From: Solicola gregarius
Lineage (GTDB): Bacteria > Actinomycetota > Actinomycetes > Propionibacteriales > Nocardioidaceae
Length of the DNA: 64,000 bases
Reading direction: 5' to 3'
Assembly (NCBI RefSeq): GCF_025790165.1
Contig: NZ_CP094970.1
Span: 1-64,000 of the forward strand
In this document: positions 1,722-16,712 of the stretch, in pieces
Numbering within the stretch: the first letter of the stretch is position 1
Layout: every line of letters starts with the position of its first letter
Made by a program: the position numbers and the translations under genes
The notes under the pieces: model-generated
Database searches by the model: none
What the model saw: the letters and a program-made list of their open reading frames with translations, nothing else
Told to the model about the DNA's origin: nothing

Positions 1722-2429
1722 TCAGTTCAGGTCGATGAGTACGCCATGGCGATGCAACAGGTCGAGTCGTTCCCGCAGGCCCGTGGCAATGGTGGCGTCG
1801 ACGCTCAGCAAGCCACATTCGAGGCTGCGCTCGGCAGCGGCCAAAGAGAAGTTCGCGCTTGTCACCAACGCTTCGCGATCATCAACGGCGATCAGCTTCG
1901 CGTGTTGGATGGCGTACGCGTCATCCTCAGGCTCATCGAGAGTCCACACCCGAGCGCCGTCCAGCATCCCGGCGATCATCTCCGCGGTTTCAAGGCGCTG
2001 CGCGGTGTCTACGACGATCGTCACAGCGACACCGCGGGTTCGCGCGTTCTTCAACGCCACGAGATGCGGTGACCCCCAGCCGGCCGAGTAGGTCGCGGCA
2101 TAGACCACGCCCTCAGCTCGGTTGATCAGGTCGAGTGCGGCCTTCGTAGTGCGACCTTCGGCTCCAGGTACGTCGCGCGGGTTGGTCCAGACGAGATCGG
2201 GACGTGGCACACGCGGTACCGCCGCGATACCTTCCAGCGCGGCAACGCCCCGCTCCACACTCGTGTCAGATCCGATCAGCTCACGCAGCGGTGTCCGCAC
2301 CACGGCCTGATTGACCCCGTACGCCCGCTTGGCAGCGATGTTCGGCCGGCGGCTCTGCCGCAGGCTGGCGGCTACCCTGCTCGCCTCCTCCGGCGTAAGC
2401 AACGCTCCGAGACGCGCGATGGCAGACAT
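1722..2429 (-). CDS. drmC: DISARM protein DrmC, phospholipase D-like
   Basis: DrmC is the phospholipase-D/nuclease-superfamily member of the DISARM anti-phage system. The 235-aa protein has one clear HKD motif near its C-terminus: QHAKLIAVDDREALVTSANF, with His, Lys and Asp in register followed by the usual Ser-Ala-Asn. Upstream are an LTPEEASRVAASL helix and a segment YAATYSAGWG that fits the first PLD half. One HKD copy suggests a dimeric active site, as in other single-motif members. The ATG at 2429 is one base past the drmB stop, so the two are probably translationally coupled. The frame is intact, unlike its neighbours on both sides. Confidence 0.9.
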   Translation of the reverse strand: MSAIARLGALLTPEEASRVAASLRQSRRPNIAAKRAYGVNQAVVRTPLRELIGSDTSVERGVAALEGIAAVPRVPRPDLVWTNPRDVPGAEGRTTKAALDLINRAEGVVYAATYSAGWGSPHLVALKNARTRGVAVTIVVDTAQRLETAEMIAGMLDGARVWTLDEPEDDAYAIQHAKLIAVDDREALVTSANFSLAAAERSLECGLLSVDATIATGLRERLDLLHRHGVLIDLN

Positions 2430-2430
2430 G

Positions 2431-4496
2431 TCAATGCACCTCGACGAGGCTTTCGAGCAGACCCGGAGTACTCACCTTTGGGTCGTCGACCACGCCCAGT
2501 AGCATACGTCGGTCGAGAAAGCGGTTGGTACGTTCGCAACTCGTCTCACTCAGGAACAGGCAGAAGTGACACGCGGCGCCGTGGAGGAACTCCTCTTTGC
2601 CTTCCGGCACCCGGTGCCCGCAGATGGGGTCGGAGGAGCAGCGCTGTCCGCGTCGAAGCGCCTTCCTCACGAGATCCTCGAGCTTGTCCGGCTTGGCCAG
2701 CTCCACCAAGCCACCAGCGTACCTTCACTGTCGGAGGCAGTCGTACTGATCAGCAGACCCGCGGCCGGTGGGTGTTCGTCGTCGCCCTTCCATGCGTAGA
2801 TTCGCTCGGTGAGGCTGGCCGACCCGTAGCCGCTGGACATCGCAGCCTGACGGATGAGCAGATGCGAGAGGGTGTGGATCACCCAGTAGCGCGGCGGTGG
2901 GAACCGATCATCGGGTTCGAGATCGTCGGCCGTCTTACTCGTACGACGCTTGAAGTTGATGCGATGTGCGTCCTTGAACCGCTCCCACACCTCGAGATCT
3001 TCGACGGAGTCCTCCCACGGCGCTATGACAGCTTCATCGAACCGCAAGAACACGCCTTCACCACGGTCCTCCGTGGCAGGTACCAGGTCGGCCGGCCGTC
3101 GCGTGTCAATGGTGCGACCCGTTCCGCAGCGTCGTCCATCCGGTCCAGCGCATCGATCCGAGTAAAACCGATGAACGCGTTGACCTTCTTGAGCTTCTCG
3201 ACGGCCACCGTCGCGGCAACAACTCCTGAGAGCAGATCCGGCACGTCGCGACGCGCGGCGCGAAAGTCGGCCATACCGGAGTGGCGCATGTACTTCTGTT
3301 CATCGGTGAGCACTGTCCACTCGGGCGCGAGGATCGTCCGCGGATCCGTACGCTTCTCCGGCGCGGTCACCACGTTCGGGACGGAATCCCCGCGTGCGAG
3401 TTGCACGGCGCGCCACAACACCTCGTCGGGTAGGTCGTCGAACACATCCGTCTGTGCGATGTTCGACGCCATCATCCGGAACATGCCGATCGCCGACACG
3501 TCCTGCGGGCCGTCCAGGGCGCCGTTCGGTAGTGCTCTCAGGTCTGGCACCAACTCCTCAGGCGTCGCGGACTCTTCTCGGGGCAATGCCAAGAGGCTCA
3601 ACGTCGAGGGGAACCACTGATTTGCCGCGCCGAGCATCATCAGCTTGCCCTGGTGCTCACACGGGTAGAACGCGTCGAGGTGCGGGTGCCGGCCGCGGCA
3701 GTAGGGCAGCTTCTCTTCGGCATCTCGTGCCGTCGCCTCACGCATGCCGCGCGTGACGTTGCACGACTGGCAGGTGAGACGTACGTCCGGGCCGATGTTG
3801 CTCTTCCACTCGTCCATCTTCATTCGCGGGTACGCATCTCCGCTCGAGCACGGCTTCCCGCGGTGTACCCACTCGACGTACGGGAACTCGTCGAGGTGCC
3901 CGTCTACGCAGGCAAGGAGGTAGCGGGCCGGTATCGCAGCCTGGGTACTCGCCCTCGCTTTGCCGCGCCTGCCAGTACACCGCTTGTGCACGAACCTGGC
4001 CTGGTCGGGCCGATAGCGGTTGGTGTTCTCGTAGTCGAAGAGTTCGTGCGAGACTTTCGCGAGCAGGCCGCAGCCGGTGCAACGCAGCCATTGCGGGAAG
4101 ATCCTCCCGGGGATGCCGAGGTCGATCGCGTCCCCACCAGCGTGGCGCTTCTCGTCCGGCGCCCAAGGCGGCTTGCGGAGCTCGCTGACCTGGCTGCCGA
4201 GGTGGGAGCGGACGAGCTCGAGCAGGCGCGACTTCGAGGATGACATCGGTGGTGGGGCGCCGCGCGTAGATCCGCTCCCAATCATCGAGCCCGTGCGGCA
4301 TCACTGCGATGTGGGGCATGTCGACCGTGGCGCCGACGCCGTTGGTGTAGAGCATCGCCGACGGCCTGATCGACCCGACGCGGGCGCGGTTGCGTGGATT
4401 GTTGTGCTCGACGTCGCCGGCGGGATCCAAGGGCTCCGCGCCGGCTGCGACCGGCTCCGAAACCGTGACAAGACCGTCCTCGATGGATTCGCTCAC
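2431..4496 (-). pseudogene. drmB: DISARM protein DrmB (DUF1998), three frameshifts
   Basis: DrmB carries the DUF1998 domain and partners DrmA in the DISARM core. Starting at GTG 4496, which overlaps the drmA stop as GTGA, the reading gives RVGSIRPSAMLYTNGVGATV and MPHGLDDWERIY, the standard N-terminus. Then follow a zinc-type CTGCG segment, YLLACVDGHLDEFPYV, CQSCN and CRGRHPHLDAF. The DUF1998 part is YWVIHTLSHLLIRQ, GYGSASLTERIYAW and DSEGTL, then CSSDPIC, LHGAACHFCLFLSETSCERT and NRFLDRRML. The frame changes near 4229-4240, at 3083-3084 and at 2714-2715. The last two fit loss of one G from a GGG run. Every domain is present across frames, about 688 codons in all, so the gene is either newly broken or misread. 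Confidence 0.9.
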
Positions 4497-7400
4497 TTCG
4501 ACGCCCCCTCGCGGAAGGTCCATTGCGGTCCTTGGTGCGGCTCCTTGAAGGCGAGCTGGTCGGCGGTCGGACTTACGAGCAGGTTGATCTCCGGCTGGAC
4601 CTCACGCATCGAATTGGAGACGACGAACACGCGATCCGCCTGCTTCGGCACCTTGGCCTCCGGGCTGATCAGCAATGGTTGGCCAACTCTGTTCTGCGGG
4701 ACTCGTTCGTAGAACAGTGCACCCCTCTCCGCTTGGGCCTTGTCGTGCCAGCGGTCGAGACGCTGTAGCAGTTTCAGCCGCATCCGGTCGGCGGACTCCG
4801 GCGCGTCTGCGGCCGCTTGGGCACGCGCGACCATCTGGTCGATCAGCGCTGTGACAAGGGGCATCTCGCTTGGCAGTCGCCCGGCACCGCTCTCTGGCGA
4901 GAGCACGCGCTGGCTAACACGCGCAACGCTGGCGAGCACGCCCATCAGACCGCGTTCCATCGCCGTATCGGAGTACGGAGTGACGCTGAGCGCCTCCACC
5001 TGAGCGTAGAAGGTTTCATGGTAGTGCCGGAACTGTTCGAAGTGCGCCATATCCCGCGGGCGGGACCAGTTGGCGAGCGACAAAACGAGTCCTGGCCTGT
5101 CACGATCGCGACCGACGCGCGAGGATGCCTGGATGTACTCGGCCGTGTTCTTCGGTTGGCCGACGACGAGCATGAGCCCGAGCCGCGGCACGTCAACACC
5201 GACCTGGAGCATCGAGGTGGCGAGGACGACATCGTATGGCTTCTTGCCCCACGGCGGCGGCGTCCTGTCTGCCTCCTTGGCTTCCGCGACCGCGTTACGG
5301 TGTTCGTTTCGACCCTGGGTGCTCCAGCGTCGGGTGAATGGCAAGGACAGCTTGTCGAGAGTCTTGGAGATCTCTTCGGCCGATATCCGCGAGGTGAGTT
5401 CGCCGATCTGCAGACCCTCCCAGTCGGTCGTACGGCGTGGGAATGGTTCGGTTTTGCCGGTGACACGAGTTGTCACGTCGTCGTCGAGGTAGCGCCGCAT
5501 TCCAGCGAGCTCGCGGGTCGCGGAGAAATAGCCAACCGTCGTCAGGTACGGATCCGCTGCGTCCTCGTACTCGTCCAGCAGTTTCTGGCCGGCAAGCAAC
5601 AGCACTTCGGCGAGGCGGATCTCGGCGAGGGTGAGTCGGATGCCGTGCGCGCAGACGCCGAGGTACTTCCGGCCAGGGTCATCTGCAGAGACAGGCAATT
5701 CCCGAGAGAAGTAGGTGTCGCGGACGTCGAGCACTTGGGGTGGGAAAACGTCGACACCACGACCATACAGTGATTGGACCTGCCGCTCGGCGTTGGCGAC
5801 GGTGGCCGTAGACGCGACGATGAGGGGCCGAATCGTCTGCCCGTCTCTGGCGTATGACGACAGCAAGTCGACCGCGTTCTCGAATACCCCGACGGACGTG
5901 CCGAGCGCTCCAGTGATGAGGTGCAGTTCGTCTTGAATGATCAGGTCCGGCGGACGAAGTCGGTCGACCTTCTGCATTACCACCCTCGGGAGCTTTCCCT
6001 TGGTCTGGTGTGACTGTGCGGGCACACAAGCAGATCGACTGTCCGGGTGCCGGTAACCGTGGCGCGGACACCACTCGTCCACGTACCCGAAGAGGCTGGC
6101 AGCCTCGCCTTCTCGGGCAAGGCGAGCGAACTTGTCAACGGTGGCAAGCAGGAACGTCGGCGGATTGCGATAGATCTCGTCGTCGACGGTGATGATCGGC
6201 AAGGCGCCGTCGGCGTCGCCCTCGATGGAGAACTCGCAGTCGCCTCGCTTGTGGTCGCCGCAGTGGACACGTACGCGTTCGGCGTCTGGGTCGGCGACGA
6301 CGTCGCGCTTGGGGTCGATCTTCGTGCCGCACCATGGACAGCGTTGGAGTTGCAGAACGGTGAGGCCATGGGCTCGCTGGCTGTTGTCAGCACGTACTGC
6401 CTTCACCTGGGCTTCGGCATCCTTGTACCGTTTGGGACTGACCGCGGATCCGACCCAGAGCCCGATGCTGAACGGCTTCTCGCCCCAGGTTTCGGTGTCC
6501 TCCTGACGGATCAGCTCGGTAGCGCAGACGAGTGCCGCAGCGCGCTGGAACTGCTGCGAGGTCAGGAGCCGCAGCGTGTAGCGCATGAGTACGGCGACAC
6601 CGTCGCCTCCGTCGAGAGCACCGTCGTCGGTCTCGATCTTGCCTTGCAGCCGTCGGATGGCGAAAGTGAATGCCGCGAGCCCGAGATAGGCCTCGGTCTT
6701 GCCGCCGCCAGTCGGGAAGAACAGGAGCTCGACGTTGGCCGCGTCGCCGCTGCGGTACGGATGCACCGGATCGGTGAGCGACCGCAACTGAAGCAGAACG
6801 AAAGCGAGCTGAAACGGTCGCCACGACGCTACGGAAGGGTCATCCGATTCCCGATCTCTCAGGTCAGTCAGGACGTCACCGATCTTCTTGGATTCGTCAC
6901 TCGCCCGTGTTGCCGCGACCTGGCTGTGGATCCGCTGGTCTCGCATAGCGCGATTCATGAATCGGAACGCCTGCAACGCTTGAGGGTCGGACTTCAGCAG
7001 TTCGACACCGTCATGGAGCCGTTCCGCGACGACTTCTGCCTCGCCGATGGCGTCCTCCGCGGTCTCGCGAAGGTGCTCGGGCAAATCGGCGGCGATCTCG
7101 TGCTGGGCTCGTAACCACTGCTCATACCCGCTGATGAGTGGTCCGAGCGCGGCTTCGGCCTCGCCGGCTTCGAGCTCAGCGAGAGTCTTCATCGAGGTGA
7201 CGGCATCGGCGGCCCCGCCGGGCACTGTCTGCGCGACATCAGCGATCGGCAGCCACGTGGTCTCGACCGACGTCGCCCTCCGTGAGTCTTCCGCCACGTC
7301 CCAGGTGGCCGAGCAGGTTCGGCCGACCGTGAACTCCAGCCGATGTCTGTACTGAAGGTCGAGCCGGCGGCGCTCATCGTCGATCTCGTCGTATCCGCCT

Positions 7401-8152
7401 TCCACCACGTCTCGGGTCGGGAGAAAGACCGCCTCGCCGCCGTTGGCTTCGACCTTCAGCTTCGTCTGAAACAGCCAGTCCTTCGGCGGGGCGTCCATCC
7501 CTGTGACCCGGTCGTTCGACAGAGCCACCTCGACAATTGTGCGGTCGTCGAGCGGAAACAGCTCGACCCGGAGAGTGACGTCATCGTCGAGCTTCTGCGG
7601 ATCGAGCGTCGCGTGCCGATCATGGCGCCGCACATCGATCTCCGCCGACGTTTCGAACGGCCTCCTCTGCGAATAGAGAATCCTCCGACCTTCCTCGTTC
7701 TCGCGCCGCTCACCTTCGTAGCGACCCCACGAGGCAGTGACCACGAGCACGCCGCAGTCTCTCGGCACCTGGAACCGCAAACCCATCGACGACGGGTGCG
7801 TCAGTGCCCCCTTTGGGCCCTCATCCCGATCCTCGTCGTCGTCGGCAGCTCCTGTGTCCTCATCCGTGTTGACCGGAACGCCATGCTGCAGCAGATGCTC
7901 GCTGTCGACATCGGACAGCGCAGAGCCGGTGAGATTCGGGTCATCGCCACCGGAATCCACGGCATCGACAGTTGCCCGCTCAGGATCGACTGTGACGGGC
8001 GCCAGCGCGCCCACCGCATACCGGGCGCGCGGCGTGCCGACGATCTCCTCCTCCGCACCGGCCCGCGGACCGAGCAGCTCCTGCTCGATCAGGCCCACGA
8101 GTTCGCGACGTACAGCGGTCGAAGGGCCCGCCTTGTCACCCGGTTCGTTCAT
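4493..8152 (-). CDS. drmA: DISARM helicase-domain protein DrmA
   Basis: DrmA is the helicase-domain subunit of DISARM; with DrmB it forms the core that acts on incoming phage DNA. The intact 1219-aa protein has Walker A PTGGGKTEAY near residue 480, a Walker B-like IIQDELHLITG near 740, STATVANAERQ as motif III, and a second RecA-like domain with LATSMLQVGVDVPRLG and QASSRVGRDRDRPG near 1007. A zinc-type RCPWCGTKI insert lies between. The chosen start is ATG 8152 (MNEPGDKAG), 14 bp after the DUF4263 stop; an upstream in-frame start at 8233 would run into that gene. The stop overlaps the drmB GTG. The acidic N-terminal third has no motif I recognise. Confidence 0.93.
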   Translation of the reverse strand: MNEPGDKAGPSTAVRRELVGLIEQELLGPRAGAEEEIVGTPRARYAVGALAPVTVDPERATVDAVDSGGDDPNLTGSALSDVDSEHLLQHGVPVNTDEDTGAADDDEDRDEGPKGALTHPSSMGLRFQVPRDCGVLVVTASWGRYEGERRENEEGRRILYSQRRPFETSAEIDVRRHDRHATLDPQKLDDDVTLRVELFPLDDRTIVEVALSNDRVTGMDAPPKDWLFQTKLKVEANGGEAVFLPTRDVVEGGYDEIDDERRRLDLQYRHRLEFTVGRTCSATWDVAEDSRRATSVETTWLPIADVAQTVPGGAADAVTSMKTLAELEAGEAEAALGPLISGYEQWLRAQHEIAADLPEHLRETAEDAIGEAEVVAERLHDGVELLKSDPQALQAFRFMNRAMRDQRIHSQVAATRASDESKKIGDVLTDLRDRESDDPSVASWRPFQLAFVLLQLRSLTDPVHPYRSGDAANVELLFFPTGGGKTEAYLGLAAFTFAIRRLQGKIETDDGALDGGDGVAVLMRYTLRLLTSQQFQRAAALVCATELIRQEDTETWGEKPFSIGLWVGSAVSPKRYKDAEAQVKAVRADNSQRAHGLTVLQLQRCPWCGTKIDPKRDVVADPDAERVRVHCGDHKRGDCEFSIEGDADGALPIITVDDEIYRNPPTFLLATVDKFARLAREGEAASLFGYVDEWCPRHGYRHPDSRSACVPAQSHQTKGKLPRVVMQKVDRLRPPDLIIQDELHLITGALGTSVGVFENAVDLLSSYARDGQTIRPLIVASTATVANAERQVQSLYGRGVDVFPPQVLDVRDTYFSRELPVSADDPGRKYLGVCAHGIRLTLAEIRLAEVLLLAGQKLLDEYEDAADPYLTTVGYFSATRELAGMRRYLDDDVTTRVTGKTEPFPRRTTDWEGLQIGELTSRISAEEISKTLDKLSLPFTRRWSTQGRNEHRNAVAEAKEADRTPPPWGKKPYDVVLATSMLQVGVDVPRLGLMLVVGQPKNTAEYIQASSRVGRDRDRPGLVLSLANWSRPRDMAHFEQFRHYHETFYAQVEALSVTPYSDTAMERGLMGVLASVARVSQRVLSPESGAGRLPSEMPLVTALIDQMVARAQAAADAPESADRMRLKLLQRLDRWHDKAQAERGALFYERVPQNRVGQPLLISPEAKVPKQADRVFVVSNSMREVQPEINLLVSPTADQLAFKEPHQGPQWTFREGASK

Positions 8153-8166
8153 GGTTCCCCAATCTG

Positions 8167-9435
8167 TCACAGCGTCCCGACATTCGATGGCCGCCAACCC
8201 ACGTAGTAGATCAGGACACGAATGGACCAGCATCCGTCAGAACGGCGCGTCGCCCGGTTCATCCCGCCAGCCGGGCACGTCCACATCGGCAGGCGAATCA
8301 GCGACCTCGTCTCTTGAGCCACCGCCGTCGGGCTTCCCATCGGACGTTGAAGAGCGAGTGCATGTTCCGCGGTCTCGATGAGATCGGCGTAGTGTCGAAG
8401 CTGTATACGCGTGTGGTGGCTGTTGAAGATCCGAATCGCCTCGTCGATCTCGTCCCGGCTGTAGCCGTCGACGAACTTCGGGTGGCCTATGAGCACCGTG
8501 GCGGACGCCCGTCGTGTATCGATCTTGAATCGACTCAGAACCGTGTCGCGGGACTCATCGAGGTGCGTAAGGTAACTCATCACCTGGCCAACCGCCCGGT
8601 TTGCCTCCGCACCCACAACTAGGGGCACATCCTCCTGCAGACCCCCGACCCCGACGCTCCTGTCCTTCGCGCCCCTGTACTGCTCCACTAGCTTGGGGGC
8701 GTTCGCTGCCTTCAACTCGACAACGTGGAGCGAGCCATCGGGACGAAGAAGGGGCACGTCAAGCACATCGCCGGCTATCAACGACTTCCTACGCGCCTCG
8801 CCGACGTATTCTCCTCCGAAGACCCATGTCATCTCTCTGATCAATGGGTGGATGTCGTCACGCTCCGAGCTCTCAGATGCCTCGACCACGCAGCGCAACT
8901 CACGCAACTGTTGCCGACGTCGTTCGAGTTCGACAGCACCGGCAATGCTGACACCTTCGGGCGACGCGGCTAGGGCGGCTATCAGACCGGGGTTGGAACC
9001 CGCCAACTCCACGAGGCGCACAGCATCGGCACCGCCCAGGTCACCGTCGCTGAGTTGATCGAGGAGTTCTCCGGCGTCGCTTTCCGTATGCACGAGCCGA
9101 AACTCACCAGCCTGTGGGAACTCGTCGCTCAGCAGCATGCGAACGGCCTCGATCTCCTTCGAGCCGTCGCAATGCCAGTGATAGTCGGTCTTGTCGAAGT
9201 CGTACCCAGCACCTGCAGGTTTCGCCGCCCATGTCTGCGCGCGAAATTCCTGGCGCTTCACCTCGCCGGTTTGCTCGTCGCCGAACGCCAACAGACTGAC
9301 CGTTTTCCACGCCTGCGGTCCGGGATGAACTGTGACTACGCGCGCTCGCAGCACACCGCGCTCTGACTTGTAATGGTCAGCAACTCTGATCGGAAGCTCC
9401 TGCGCTATGCGCTCCGCATCACTTCGACTCGCCAT
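8167..9435 (-). CDS. DUF4263 (Shedu-type) putative nuclease inside the DISARM operon
   Basis: A 422-aa protein whose C-terminal half matches DUF4263, the domain of the Shedu anti-phage protein SduA, a PD-(D/E)xK-fold nuclease. Seen in the sequence: MTWVFGGEYVG opening the domain, then VPLLRPDGSLHVVELKAAN near residue 243, which supplies the Asp and the Glu-x-Lys of the active site, then QVMSYL and GHPKFVDGYSRDEIDEAIR. The first 150 residues are an N-terminal domain I do not recognise. ATG 9435 overlaps the drmMI stop as TGATG, and the stop is 14 bp before drmA, so it belongs to the DISARM transcript. It is not part of DISARM as usually defined. The predicted role is DNA cleavage; the target is unknown. 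Confidence 0.85.
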   Translation of the reverse strand: MASRSDAERIAQELPIRVADHYKSERGVLRARVVTVHPGPQAWKTVSLLAFGDEQTGEVKRQEFRAQTWAAKPAGAGYDFDKTDYHWHCDGSKEIEAVRMLLSDEFPQAGEFRLVHTESDAGELLDQLSDGDLGGADAVRLVELAGSNPGLIAALAASPEGVSIAGAVELERRRQQLRELRCVVEASESSERDDIHPLIREMTWVFGGEYVGEARRKSLIAGDVLDVPLLRPDGSLHVVELKAANAPKLVEQYRGAKDRSVGVGGLQEDVPLVVGAEANRAVGQVMSYLTHLDESRDTVLSRFKIDTRRASATVLIGHPKFVDGYSRDEIDEAIRIFNSHHTRIQLRHYADLIETAEHALALQRPMGSPTAVAQETRSLIRLPMWTCPAGGMNRATRRSDGCWSIRVLIYYVGWRPSNVGTL

Positions 9436-12400
9436 CAGAACAGTTCGCCCTGGTCGGGGACGTCTTGGCCTTCGGCGCGGGCACGTTCGTGGTTCAGTTC
9501 GAGGAGGCGGTCGAGGATCTCGACGCGGGCGTCGGGCGAGACGGTCCAACGCGTCACTTGGCGGTAGGTGTGAAAGCCGTGGTCGAGTTGGAGGTCGTCC
9601 CATCCGTACGCTTCTATCGTCGCTTCGTCGACCTCGACGTGGATCTCACGCAACCGGTCCACATATGCGTCCCCCCGCACGTCCGGATCATTAATCAGGT
9701 TGTAGAGCTTCGTCAGACCAAGTCCGCGGCGCAGCATGATCTCACGACGCTCCTCGTCCAGGGCCTTGCCGACCTTATGTAATCGAGCGTTCGATTCTGG
9801 CTGCGGGAAGGTTTCGAACACGTCGCTCGGCGTGTATCTCATTCGCGTCTCATGCGTCGAGCCGTAAGCGATTGCCCAGTAGAAGTGAGGCGCAGACGAA
9901 AGTAGCCCCTCGAGCGCAAACGTTGCGTCAACAAAGACAGTTACGCCATGGCTAAACACCAGGTTTGCACTCACGCGAACGGGCATCAGCGTCTTGCTTG
10001 TGGATACCAAAACAAGCACGTCATCCGCGTTGGAGAGGGCTTCTCGAAGTCTTACGCCGGAGCGCTCGTACAGCCACCAGTCGCGTTTGACCTTGGGCTT
10101 ATTGCTGAGTTTCTCCCTCACCGGACGTACGCGGGAATCGACCCAGTCGAATGCTACCCTATACTGACCGGCCTGTAGCTCGGTTAAGCCAGTGAAGTCC
10201 ACTATCCAACGGGTAGGCGACACCGATGCAGTGCCATTGATGTCGTCCTTCCCGCTAAGGAAAGGGCGAACGACGTGGCCGACCGAATCATCCGCCTAAC
10301 CCACGCGTTCGCTAATTCAAGCGGGACTGAGAATTCCTCGACTCCGTTGATAAACGAGCCGACGAACGACTTTCCTGCGTTGGCCCGAAGATGTAAGGGA
10401 CGACCCTTCACCCGACCTTCGGGCTCCAAGAACGCCGATATTTCGGTAGCAGGATGGCCATCACAGTATCTGACGACACTCGAGCCTATGCGTGGTCTAG
10501 ACGCGACCCCCCATATCGCGGCGTACTCGAGGCTCACCGACTTGGAGGGCCACGGAGCGCTACGAACTGCACGAACGATCTCAAGACCTCCGGTCAGTAA
10601 CTGATCCAAGCCAACTTCCCGGGTGTCTCCCTGCGCCAGCGTGTTCGTCGCAATCAATCCGAGCCAACCGTTGTGCGCGAGGATAGCCCTAGCACGGAGA
10701 AAGAAGTATGCAACTAGGTCGGCGTTACCTCGCGCGCCATGCGCGACGACATTGACTAGCCACTCTCTAGCGTTAGCGCCGATAGCGCCTGAGACCTTCT
10801 TCCCACCGAGGAATGGCGGGTTTCCCACCACCGCGTCAAAACCACCTCGATCGACGATAACATCGGGCGCCTCGATGACCCAGTGCAGCGGTTGCCAGCG
10901 GTCATAGTCGGTCTGCACCGCCGGGGTAAGGCCATCGGAGATGATTTCCTCAAGTTTTGCACCCGATCGGCCGCCCGCACCGAACGCCTCTGAACATGCC
11001 CCTTCCAAAGCCTTGTAGGCATCCTCGAGCTGAACGCCTGGCTTTCCGCCGAGGCGCAGGCCGGCGGCGACCACTCCGTCTGCCATCCTCCGAAGTTCCG
11101 CCGTGGCTGCCTGAGATTGGCGAAGCAACCGCGACTTCCCAGCTTGGCTTCGCATCGGATCGTTCGGATCGACGGGTGTGGCCAGTTGCTCTCGTAGCTG
11201 GGTAGCCGCATGTAGCTTCGCTCGAACGTCGATGTAGGGAACGACGAACTTGCGCTTACGGTCCGGATCGATGTGGAGATGTTCGAGCTGTGCGGCCGTC
11301 GTCAGCCCGAGCAGCGAGTTGCCGCAGAAGATCTTGTCGTCGACGAACGAGAACGGCTTCGTCGGATCGAGCGAGACCAACCAGAGCGAGAGCTTGCACA
11401 TCTCGACGGCCATCGGGTTGATATCGGCACCGTACAGGCAGCGAGCAACGACCTCGCGAATCGCCCGGTCGTACGCGTGATCCGGCTTCGCGACTTCCTC
11501 GGTCGAGATCGCATCCTCGGCTGTCCATGCTTCGACGACTCGTTCGGCGAGGAACCGCGCCGCCGCGACGAGGAACGCCCCTGAGCCGGCAGCGATGTCG
11601 GCGACCTTCAGGTCGAGAATCGCCGTACTCCCCTTGAGGTGCCACTGATCGCGATCGTTCTCCTGCAGAGGCCCGGGTTCGTAGACGAGTGGCTCCAGGG
11701 CGTGTTGAACGACCTCTTCCGCAAGCGAGCGCGGCGTGTAGTGAGCACCCGCGTTCTTCCGAGAGGAGTCTCCGCGACGACCAGCCCACCTACAGGGACA
11801 ATGAACGGAATGCCTCGTAGGTCACGACGAATCAGTGGACTCCAGTCGACGAGGAATGCAAGCAGTTGCTCGTCGCTACCGACGACCGGGTTGAGTTGGC
11901 GAGTGACCTCAGCACGCTCTTCATCGGTGATGTCGGCGTTGTACGCCTTCACGATCTGCTTCGGAGTCGCCGGTTTGGCCGATGCTTGCCGTTCCTTCAC
12001 CTCGGCGAGCAAGGCAAGACCGAAAGTCTTGCCGTCACTTGACTCGTCGTACAGCCGCCGAAGCGTGCGGGCGTCGATCTCCGGTTCCTCGCCGTCCCTG
12101 CCGATAAGGCCGACGATGGCGTCACCCTCCACGGTCTGGCAGGTGTAGCCCAGCAGGCCCTCGTAGATGTAGCCGATCTGCTCGACATCGATGTCGCGGA
12201 AGGAGATCCGACGGGCTTCGTTGCCGATGGTGGCGTACTGGACGGATCTCAAGACGTGCAGCATCACCCGATCGCGGACCTTGATCCGCAGACCCTTGTC
12301 GTCGGTGGCCGACAGCCACGGGAAGCGACCAGGATCGAGCAGGCTGCCGCCGTACGCGGGCATACGCATCTCGTCGTAGTTGACTCCGTTGTGCAGAGCG

Positions 12401-13449
12401 TCGCTCACGGCGAGCAGGCGATGCCAGGTGTCGTACGTTTCGTCGAGCAACTCCTCACCGTGTGCCGCACGCTTATGGAGATCATCCAGGACGTCGCGCA
12501 TCGCGTACGACTCCCAGTACAACCGTTCGGTCGGGAGCATGCCGCGTTCCTCGGCGAAGAGCAGGAAGACGACACGCATCATGATCGTGACGGCCGCCTG
12601 ATAGACCTCGTCATCGTCGTCGGGCAGTGGGTCAGAATCGCCTACCGATCGTGCCTCGAAGCGGGCACGAGAGAACGAGCTGACGAGGAGTTCAACTGCC
12701 TTGCGTACCTGGGTGCCGAGAGCTTCGGTGATTTCCTCGGCGGCAGCTTCACTGTCTGCGAGCAACTTCGGTAAGCGTTCGTCGACGTTCTTGGTGCGGA
12801 ATCGGCGTTGATCGATGAGGGTGAGAAAGGCGTCGCGAACGAGCGGCTCTTCGCCCCAGGTAGCGGCGTCCGTGACCGCAGAGCCTGTGGGTTTGTCTCG
12901 GTGTGCCCAGACAATCGCCCACCATCGACCGTCGGTCACGATGCCCACCTCGACATCGGCCTTGCGAAGGAGTCCGGCCATCCGGTCGACCTCCGTCGCC
13001 GACCAACCGTCGAGCCCTGGGCCGCGCAGGTCATCCCTCGGTTCGACGATCCGCAGCAGGGCTGCATAGTCAGCGCCTCTGCCCTCGAGGGCGCCATCCG
13101 GGCGGATCCTGATCTGTTCACCCGGAGAATGGATCTCGAGGTCAGCGGGCACGTGATCGCCGTCGATGCGTAGGTCGTCCCATTCAGCGAGCTGACCGAG
13201 AACGGTGTCGACCCACGCACGAGTGATCTCGGCGTACTCATCTCGGTTGTCGGGTGTGCGGGCGTCATAGGCACGCAACCAGTTCGCGTACGCCTGTTTG
13301 AAGACGACACCTCGCTCGTCCGTGTCGCCGAGCCGGTCGACGCCGCTGGGCCACGCCGATTTCACCACGGGAAGGCTCAGGAACGGCCCGTCGGTCTCGA
13401 ACTGGTCGAGCCAGGAGTAGTCGACGGGACTGCTCCTTCGCTCCCTCAT
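9435..13449 (-). pseudogene. drmMI: DISARM adenine methyltransferase DrmMI, two frameshifts
   Basis: DrmMI is the large N6-adenine methylase that marks host DNA in class 1 DISARM. Read across frames it is about 1338 codons. It has a long N-terminal region (13449-11770, including VVFLLFAEERGMLPTERLYW), then AGAHYTPRSLAEEVV and VADIAAGSGAFLVA (SAM motif I), MAVEMCKLSLWLVSLDP, DAVVGNPPFLGGKKV (catalytic NPPF), and a C-terminal target-recognition region ending VPDQGELF. The frame changes at 11765-11766 and again at 10295-10296, where one G missing from a run would restore it. The ATG overlaps the drmD stop as ATGA. Both methylases of the island are thus broken on paper while the helicases, DrmC and the DUF4263 gene are intact. 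If real, self-protection would be at risk, which argues for checking the reads. Confidence 0.9.
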
Positions 13450-16400
13450 CGGATGGTCACCTCCCCAGACGCGGCGTCCTCTGGGGACAGTGCGAAGACC
13501 ACCGCGGCGTGGAACGTACGTGCCTTGACATCGGCATACCGGGCATCGACTGCGGCGAGTTCGCGTTCACGCTCCTCGGCGAGGGCTTGGATGCGCTCGC
13601 GGATCTGCGCGAGATCGCGCTCCGACTGTCGGCGTTCGTCGGTGAACAGGGCGAGCTGGTCATCATCGGCGAGTTCCCTCGCTTCACGCAGAGCTTCCTC
13701 GAGTGTGTGGCCAAAACGATCGAAGATCGCGATGACGCGATCATGATCGGCCTCATGACGTGCGGTGAGTTGCTGCTCGATGTCACGCCGGCGCCGGGCG
13801 ACGCGATCCTCGACCGCGGCGGCAACGCGTGCTCGGAGGCCGTCGGCTGTGTCACTGCTCCAGGCCGACGCGATCTGGCGAATGACCACGTCGCTGGGGC
13901 GTTCGAGCTTGTCAGAGTCCAACGCACGTTCGAGCAGAGCCTCCGACTTCTCCTCGCCGAGGGCCTGACGTCTGGCCAGTCGGGTACCGGCCAAGAAGAC
14001 CTCCTCATGAACACGCAGACCAGCGTCGCCGATCAGCACCATGCGGGTGACCGCGGCGGCAAAGGACTCTCGGAGCTCCGGAACGACCACAGCGGTGACG
14101 CGTTCGAGCGAGCGCTCAGTACCCCAGATGGCTGCGCGAAGCCGTTTGGTGGCCCGCTGCAGCAGCGGGCTGCCTAGGTGCTGGTACACGACGTCGGGAT
14201 CACCGCCCTCGTCGCGTGGGGCAAGCACCCGAGGGTCAAACGCGATGGGGCGAAGGTTGTCTGGGTCGAGGCGCGTGCTCAGGCCACGGGTGACCTGCTC
14301 CCAGGACTGGTCGAGCGACGGCAACCGCAGCACCGGAACGTCCGTGTACTCCGAGCCGACTTCCTCGAGCTCCGGGATACGGTCGAGCTCGAAAGCTGTC
14401 TCGACCACCCGCTGGAGATTGGCTGGGCGAAGGTGGAGCGTCTTGCGACTGCTGGTCAACTCGTCGGCGAGCTTCGTGAGTTCGGTACCGAGGCCGCGCC
14501 CGCCGGACAGCATCTTGCCCATCGGGTCCTTCTCGGCCCGTACGCTGGGGGCAGCGACGTCGACGCCGCCGAGTTGACGTTGGATGTCCGGAGCGATGAT
14601 CTCATTGGCAGAGCCGAGGTCTCTCATGATCTGGGAGACCCTTCGCGCAACTCGCGCCAGCATTTCAACGTCTGCGGCAAGCTCGTCAGTGGCGTCTGTG
14701 CTCGCCGTGAAGTGGCGGATCTCTGGCGGAATCTGTTGGCCATAGCGGTCGACCCGACCAATGCGCTGTTCGAGTCGATTCGGATTGAACGGAATGTCGA
14801 AGTTGACCAGCCGGTGACAATAGTTCTGCAGGTCGATGCCCTCGCCCGCTGCGTCGGTGGCCCATAGGATCCGGATCGGCTCCTTTGCAGGATCCTCGTT
14901 GAAGCGATCGCGGATCAGTTCCCGCTCGTCAGAGTCTGTGCCGCCCGCGATCACGTCGATACGCTCGGATTCCCATCCCTTCTGGCGAAGGATGTCGCGA
15001 ATCCAGTCGAGCGTGTCTACGTACTCGGTGAACACGACGACCCGCTCGTTGTTCCACTGACCATCGGGGCGACAGGCAGCCTCCAGGTATGCGATGAGCG
15101 ACTCGAGGCGAGCGTCGGGACGCGCGTCGTAGCGATGACCCCACGTGCTCAGCCACTCCAGATCCTCGGTGTCTTCATCGGACAAGGGCGGCAGGGCGTT
15201 CTTAGTCTTCTGCAGGGTCTGCATCTCGGGTTGTTCGACCCGGCCTTCTTCGGCCCCGTCGGAGTCGGTTCCGACGACCTCGTCGTACAGGCTGTCGAAG
15301 TCCACCGGCAGGTCTCCGGCGCGGGTCTCGCGGTAGATGTCCACGGTGCGGGCGAACGCAACGGGCGAGGACAAGAACCGCTTCTTCAGCAAGAGCGTTG
15401 CCATGTCCTTCGCCGCCCGGCTGCCATCGGCCCTCGCAACGGCGTTGTCCCGACGTCTGGTGAATTCGAGCAGCCGCTCGTACGCCTCCGACTCCTTGTC
15501 CGTCGGCGCGTAGTCGAGGGCCTTGACCTCACGTTTGACGAAGCGCCCCGGGATGTCGTCCTTGAGTCGACGAACAGCAACCTGCTCGAGAGCCTTCTCA
15601 TCGAGCGCCGTGCCTCGAACGAACCTCTGCGGATCGATCATCTCCAGAAGCGCCGTGAACGACTCGGTGTAGCCGTTGTGTGGGGTCGCGGAGAGGAAGA
15701 GTCGGTGCTCGCATCGCTCGGCCAAGTCTCGGACGGCGCGGGTGCGGAGTGAGTCGACGGCGTACCCACGGGTGCGGCCGACCTTGTCGCGGCGGGTCGG
15801 GGCGCTCGGAGCCACATGGTGGGCCTCATCGACCACGAGGATGTCGTACGCGAACCGCGAGGCGTCGCGTTCATGGGCGTGGAACGCATCGCGGAGCTGC
15901 CGTTGGGCGCGGGCACCGGGGAGCCACGACATCGATACGATGATGCGCGGAAAGAGTGTGAACGGGTTCGCGTGAACACCATGGCTACGGCGTACCTCGC
16001 GCATGGTCTCGGAGTTCATGATGGTGAACTCGAGGCCGAACTTCTCGGCCATCTCCTCCTGCCATTTGATCCGCAGGCCCGCCGGGCACACGACGATCGC
16101 CGTCCGCGCGCGGTGGCGCAGGAAGAGCTCCTGCATCACCAAGCCGGCCTCGATGGTTTTCCCGAGGCCTACGTCGTCCGCGAGTAGCAGGTTGACTCGT
16201 GGCTCTCGGAGCGCCCGAACCAGCGGTTCGAGCTGGTAGTGCTCCACATTCGCACCGGAACGAAACGGCGCTTGGATCGTCTTGTCGTCGGCGCTGGTCA
16301 GTGCTCCCCAGCGGAGGGCATCGATGAAGGCCGCAAGCCGTGCAGGATCATCGAAGCGTTCGGGAACGAGATCGGTCGGGAGATCCTGCGGCGGTGTCAG

Positions 16401-16712
16401 GCTGCGGCCGGGTTCGAGCTCCCACACCACGCGAAGTTCCTCGCCGAGGCGGTCGTCTTCGACCGACTGGAGCGTCACGGCGTGTTGGAGCTGCTGGACA
16501 GCATCGTCCTGCGCGCTTCGCGGGAGACTCTGTTGCTGAACGTCCGCCACTGCCCAGTTGGCTCCCCGGACGCTGACGATCTGTCCTGGCTCCGGCACGG
16601 CCGTGGCTGTCGTGTGTTCCCTCGCTGTCACAGAACCGACCCTATCGATGGACACCGACATGTGCTCGACAATCAGTGAACCCAATAGCCGACTTGTTGT
16701 ACGCGGAGTCAC
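13446..16712 (-). CDS. drmD: DISARM SNF2-like helicase DrmD
   Basis: DrmD is the SNF2/RapA-like DEAD-box ATPase that marks class 1 DISARM. The 1088-aa frame is intact. Walker A DDVGLGKTIEAG lies near residue 182, VVDEAHHVAPSAPT near 296, FLSATPHNGYTES follows, and the second RecA domain has VVFTEYVDTLDW, ATDAAGEGIDLQ and QRIGRVDRYGQ near 650. The C-terminal third is helical and charged. GTG 16712 is preferred because GAGGTC stands six bases upstream; ATG 16661 is the alternative. It is first in the DISARM gene string, so the operon promoter should lie in 16713-16928, where I see no clear hexamer pair. Confidence 0.93.
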   Translation of the reverse strand: MTPRTTSRLLGSLIVEHMSVSIDRVGSVTAREHTTATAVPEPGQIVSVRGANWAVADVQQQSLPRSAQDDAVQQLQHAVTLQSVEDDRLGEELRVVWELEPGRSLTPPQDLPTDLVPERFDDPARLAAFIDALRWGALTSADDKTIQAPFRSGANVEHYQLEPLVRALREPRVNLLLADDVGLGKTIEAGLVMQELFLRHRARTAIVVCPAGLRIKWQEEMAEKFGLEFTIMNSETMREVRRSHGVHANPFTLFPRIIVSMSWLPGARAQRQLRDAFHAHERDASRFAYDILVVDEAHHVAPSAPTRRDKVGRTRGYAVDSLRTRAVRDLAERCEHRLFLSATPHNGYTESFTALLEMIDPQRFVRGTALDEKALEQVAVRRLKDDIPGRFVKREVKALDYAPTDKESEAYERLLEFTRRRDNAVARADGSRAAKDMATLLLKKRFLSSPVAFARTVDIYRETRAGDLPVDFDSLYDEVVGTDSDGAEEGRVEQPEMQTLQKTKNALPPLSDEDTEDLEWLSTWGHRYDARPDARLESLIAYLEAACRPDGQWNNERVVVFTEYVDTLDWIRDILRQKGWESERIDVIAGGTDSDERELIRDRFNEDPAKEPIRILWATDAAGEGIDLQNYCHRLVNFDIPFNPNRLEQRIGRVDRYGQQIPPEIRHFTASTDATDELAADVEMLARVARRVSQIMRDLGSANEIIAPDIQRQLGGVDVAAPSVRAEKDPMGKMLSGGRGLGTELTKLADELTSSRKTLHLRPANLQRVVETAFELDRIPELEEVGSEYTDVPVLRLPSLDQSWEQVTRGLSTRLDPDNLRPIAFDPRVLAPRDEGGDPDVVYQHLGSPLLQRATKRLRAAIWGTERSLERVTAVVVPELRESFAAAVTRMVLIGDAGLRVHEEVFLAGTRLARRQALGEEKSEALLERALDSDKLERPSDVVIRQIASAWSSDTADGLRARVAAAVEDRVARRRRDIEQQLTARHEADHDRVIAIFDRFGHTLEEALREARELADDDQLALFTDERRQSERDLAQIRERIQALAEERERELAAVDARYADVKARTFHAAVVFALSPEDAASGEVTIR

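Follow-up and report, generated by a model that had tools for sequence, protein, structure and literature searches.

This study indicates that a self-sufficient Shedu-type nuclease has probably entered a cargo slot, between drmMI and drmA, of the class 1 DISARM operon of Solicola gregarius, where it would work independently as a second layer of defense. The operon lies in the window, namely the whole stretch of 64,000 nucleotides that was analyzed, and the coordinates of its genes are given together with the slot cargo of other loci in Table 1.

The DISARM Operon and the Contig-End Overlap

The class 1 DISARM system is complete, with all five of its genes identified by PADLOC in the usual order, and departs from the known system in that an additional gene separates drmMI from drmA. 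Positions 1-40007 of the window recur as a direct repeat with 99.85% identity at 4875746-4915757, the far end of the 4,915,757-bp contig. This 40-kb repeat is best read as the untrimmed overlap of a circular chromosome, i.e., as a second consensus of one locus. A second DISARM copy in the genome was therefore ruled out, as the second of two matches of identical score obtained in the family search lies in this overlap.

Across the DISARM genes, six single-base indels and a single substitution separate the window copy from the end copy. Every DISARM gene has an uninterrupted frame in the end copy, whereas in the window copy the indels at 2715, 3082, and 4233 break drmB into at least two ORFs, and those at 10294 and 11764 make drmMI read as three. 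Since neither frame is interrupted in the end copy, drmB and drmMI were ruled out as genuine pseudogenes. In the DUF4263 gene, one base missing near 8349 of the window copy shifts the frame, which alters the last ~38 codons and creates a spurious stop at 8167, whereas the true reading frame ends with the stop at 8237-8239. The first-pass annotation had described an intact gene at 8167-9435; the gene and its start at 9435 were confirmed, but not the end or the product of 422 amino acids (aa), whose C-terminus differs from the real one. Because of the same frameshift, the 14-bp spacing to drmA that had been reported is also an artefact, and the real gap is 3 or 85 bp, according to whether drmA begins at the candidate ATG at 8233 or at the one at 8151, which has GGGGA just upstream. 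Given single-base indels in several genes, frameshifts reported anywhere in window 1-40007 need comparison with the end copy.

The TGATG overlap between drmMI and the DUF4263 gene is real. The gene had been called fused into the operon but is a separate one. Its position within the operon is suited to the co-transcription with the DISARM core that had been proposed, and no promoter-like or terminator-like sites were found around it; this much of the proposal stands, while co-expression itself may be inferred from it. The GC and GC3 values of the gene are similar to those of the adjoining genes.

Table 1. Features of the DISARM operon in the window, and cargo found at the drmMI/drmA junction of other loci.
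Feature	Window coordinates or locus	Strand	Description	Evidence
drmC	1722..2429	-	PLD nuclease, intact, 235 aa	PADLOC DrmC, E=4.6e-91
drmB	2431..4523	-	697 aa in end copy; broken in window	PADLOC, end-copy comparison
drmA	4493..8151	-	DISARM helicase; probable start 8151, frame open from 8233; 1246 aa in end copy	PADLOC DrmA, E=0
DUF4263/SduA-type nuclease gene	8237..9435	-	399 aa (end copy); cargo in drmMI/drmA slot	Pfam SduA_C, PADLOC SduA
Catalytic stretch L225-K242	8710..8763	-	LDVPLLRPDGSLHVVELK (D226, E240, K242); PD-(D/E)xK domain	Homologue alignment; profile vs 8ps4
N-terminal domain, residues 1-150	8986..9435	-		Common to relatives L161 and L171, outside DISARM
drmMI stop/DUF4263 start overlap	9433..9437	-	TGATG	Sequence
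drmMI	9435..13449	-	1338 aa in end copy; three ORFs in window	PADLOC, end-copy comparison
drmD	13446..16712	-	SNF2-like helicase, 1088 aa	PADLOC DrmD, E=0
Slot cargo	L055, L106, L114		AspBHI/Mrr-type	
Slot cargo	L087, L107		GmrSD	
Slot cargo	L130		YhcG PDDEXK and KAP NTPase	
Slot cargo	L054		Schlafen AlbA_2	
Slot cargo	L063		DUF6119	
Slot cargo	L050		HATPase and methyltransferase pair (HATPase member also in L108, L114)	
Slot cargo	L118, L125		UvrD	
Slot cargo	L087, L113		HipA	
Slot cargo	L072, L109		HTH and M78 peptidase	
Slot cargo	L092		Hsp70-NYN	
Slot cargo	L118		HNH	

Identity of the Nuclease

The Pfam family SduA_C (PF14082, DUF4263) matches residues 189-352 of the 399-aa protein (E=5e-7; 30.5 bits, above the curated cut-off of 27), and the best SduA model of PADLOC, PDLC00401, matches with E=1.9e-64 and 216.6 bits. 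These data uphold the DUF4263, Shedu-type identity assigned in the first-pass annotation. The likeness to the PADLOC model lies in the nuclease half, with only model positions 199-400 of 404 being matched, whereas the N-terminal half is another domain, which is also found in the relatives at loci L161 and L171.

In an alignment of ten homologues, residues E191, D226, E240, K242, and Q284 are invariant, an arrangement typical of PD-(D/E)xK nucleases. A profile built from the ten finds the solved Shedu effector (8ps4/8ps5) at E=5.5e-7, with the D...E-x-K stretch aligned. The PD-(D/E)xK prediction thus passed its test at the level of sequence, and the fold is a predicted one, as a single-sequence AlphaFold model of the protein had a mean pLDDT of 38, too low to judge it. 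The protein resembles this effector and E. coli SduA in its C-terminal nuclease with D-x13-E-x-K and in the presence of an N-terminal domain ahead of the nuclease, but differs in that this domain matches no solved structure and the gene resides within another defense operon. Judged by these sequence comparisons, the 399-aa product is a Shedu-type (DUF4263/SduA) PD-(D/E)xK nuclease.

The N-terminal 150 residues gave nothing significant in Pfam or the PDB. Their relatives are found at L161 (35% identity, E=9e-22) and L171 (37%, E=4e-20), and no DISARM genes were found within ~9 kb of either. As the domain is common to these loci, the protein is a Shedu protein with an N-terminal type of its own that also occurs free of DISARM, and the two neighborhoods would fit a single-gene Shedu system. 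Further, no drmA was found close to relatives of the nuclease on plasmids of Corynebacterium and Halobaculum, and no relative was confirmed among the viral contigs searched.

The true C-terminus of the protein (L004:3987-4110), ...GWRDEPGDAPF, resembles the tail of the host SSB, ...DPWASGSAPAGSSDEPPF, and the L171 relative carries C-terminal DPWA repeats like those of SSB. The tail possibly mimics SSB, and the resemblance may also be due to chance.

The drmMI/drmA Junction as a Cargo Slot

The comparison covered 98 other drmA loci, of which 12 came from genomes of the phylum, 6 were plasmid-borne, and 80 were obtained by scanning ~85,000 species genomes. A slot was regarded as filled when at least 700 bp of extra sequence lay between neighboring DISARM genes. 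Before filtering, this was observed at drmMI-drmA in 34/73 loci, compared with 2/61 at drmD-drmMI, 0/94 at drmA-drmB, and 0/78 at drmB-drmC. After L126 (drmD inside the gap) and L069 and L079 (an inverted drmMI fragment plus a recombinase) were dropped, drmMI-drmA was filled in 31/70 loci and under 700 bp in 39/70; among loci with complete gene order, 22/55 were filled. Fisher tests against the other junctions all gave p<1e-8 (unfiltered 34/73 versus drmD-drmMI and drmB-drmC; filtered 22/55 versus drmA-drmB), values that overstate independence because the loci are related. The count on the DrmA tree is a safer measure, and it gave 17 switches between cargo and empty, at least 13 of which are forced by well-supported branches.

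In loci without cargo, the overlap between drmMI and drmA is typically 1-4 bp, whereas some cargo, in L055, L063, L121, L138, and L142, has a -4 overlap with drmMI instead. In L046, L072, and L115, the cargo lies on the opposite strand. Both nucleases and other defense genes are represented among the cargo (Table 1). Class 1 DISARM thus has a cargo slot at the drmMI/drmA junction, placed between the class-specific drmD-drmMI and the shared core drmA-drmB-drmC.

The operons closest to the one studied here differ in what this slot holds. The closest, L064 (Saccharomonospora sp. CUA-673; DrmA, DrmB, and DrmD 82% identical), has its drmMI/drmA junction occupied by DUF5343 and Hypoth_Ymh genes, and in the next-closest operons, L065-L067, the junction is empty. 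Since the extra gene differs among related operons at one junction, the nuclease looks like interchangeable cargo rather than a built-in part of a subtype. Relatives of the DUF4263 nuclease were found by tblastn in 0/98 of the other drmA loci, a sample beyond which several hundred further drmA loci lie, and the SduA_C family was present in 2/50 DISARM-bearing genomes, on other contigs in both.

Proposed Function and Alternative Explanations

Based on this evidence, we consider it likely that the nuclease is independent cargo. The gene appears translationally coupled to drmMI, and because of this coupling the nuclease would be made together with DISARM. Its N-terminal domain may sense some feature of invading DNA, and this sensing might release the C-terminal PD-(D/E)xK nuclease, which would then nick or cut that DNA, probably on its own and beside DISARM. 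The proposal follows E. coli SduA, an oligomer whose N-terminal clamp senses DNA ends and which nicks at a fixed distance nearby; the diversity of Shedu N-termini is thought to set specificity (PMC12904381). As the N-terminal domain in this study matches nothing in Pfam or the PDB, the sensing of DNA ends would be an analogy with a protein whose N-terminal region is of another kind.

Two points count against independent cargo: a true subunit should be just as tightly coupled within the operon, and the slot contains nucleases in several loci, as would suit a slot for effectors. They agree with an alternative in which DrmAB recruits the nuclease as an effector subunit, so that interchangeable slot nucleases destroy DNA after DrmAB has loaded on unmethylated phage DNA. 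DrmC is dispensable, and mix-and-match recruitment of other nucleases by DrmAB has been proposed (PMC9142583); the AspBHI/Mrr-type, GmrSD, YhcG, and HNH cargoes, together with the Shedu-type protein described here, would suit such recruitment, as would the tight coupling of cargo to drmMI in a subset of loci. Nevertheless, the slot is without cargo in more than half of the loci (39/70), much of the cargo is not nuclease-like (HipA, HATPase with methyltransferase, HTH/M78, UvrD), and some of it is on the opposite strand, which speaks against an effector reading as a general rule. Moreover, the same Shedu type is found without DISARM neighbors, and drmC is intact in the present operon. We therefore regard a DrmAB-recruited subunit as unlikely, although it is the main alternative. 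It is similarly doubtful that the junction is a dedicated effector slot, holding swappable and often nuclease-type proteins that are co-expressed with DrmAB and activated through it; if this were true, the dispensability of DrmC would be explained and the Shedu-type protein would be one swappable effector.

The first-pass annotation had proposed a distinct DISARM subtype whose nuclease would take over from DrmC or add to its activity, and had named the absence of the gene from all other DISARM loci as the result that would refute it. The gene was absent from all the others in the sample of 98, and drmC is present and intact, so neither part of the proposal is supported. A stable subtype defined by DUF4263 would account for the position in the operon and the coupling; with no second case in 98 loci and 50 whole genomes, and with unrelated cargo in the sister operon L064, such a subtype is highly improbable. 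A functionless passenger, i.e., a chance insertion heading for decay, would agree with the finding of the gene in one locus only. We consider this very unlikely, since the end copy has an uninterrupted frame of 399 codons, all catalytic residues are kept, and the base composition resembles that of the neighboring genes.

Precedents and Significance

Several findings in the literature are comparable with independent cargo in a defense operon. ShdA (RmuC) genes are embedded in DISARM-like operons of Pseudomonas, with about 70 cases, all in this genus (PMC10270631); here too another defense gene is carried in a DISARM operon, although the protein is unrelated. GmrSD/BrxU is embedded in BREX operons, where it adds complementary protection (PMC8565348, PMC12373910). 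This likewise represents a nuclease nested in a methylation-based defense operon, with the difference that BREX is the host system and a type IV enzyme the cargo. DISARM operons with additional auxiliary genes have also been described (PMC9142583). No report of DUF4263 in DISARM or of a preferred drmMI/drmA slot was found in the literature searched, which did not include the original paper by Ofir et al. (2018), where the slot may be mentioned.

DrmC is dispensable and has no other nuclease assigned beside it for the destruction of phage DNA by DISARM. One preferred slot that has been repeatedly filled with different defense genes and emptied offers a defined set of constructs for distinguishing independent second layers from swappable effectors. 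In addition, the sequence between drmMI and drmA is a cheap source of new defense genes.

Observations on Neighboring Genes and Related Loci

A C5-cytosine methyltransferase gene adjoins drmC (window ~285-1606; L003:16030-17355) and is broken by indels in the window copy. A cytosine methylase gene is also found beside or near DISARM in L046, L048, and L050.

In two of the loci dropped from the slot count, L069:7097-8352 (Phytohabitans suffuscus) and L079:5971-8503 (Cellulosimicrobium cellulans), a serine recombinase occupies the slot together with part of the drmMI target-recognition region in inverted orientation, and L069 contains a 154-nt perfect inverted repeat. This arrangement resembles an inversion switch for the specificity of the DISARM methylase; the literature searched yielded no paper on phase variation in DISARM. 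On plasmid pNOCA01 of Nocardioides sp. JS614 (L046:446-5251), an IS1380-family transposase gene interrupts drmD, and the DISARM locus of genome G137 (L059:8423-16664) carries two drmMI-like genes in tandem.
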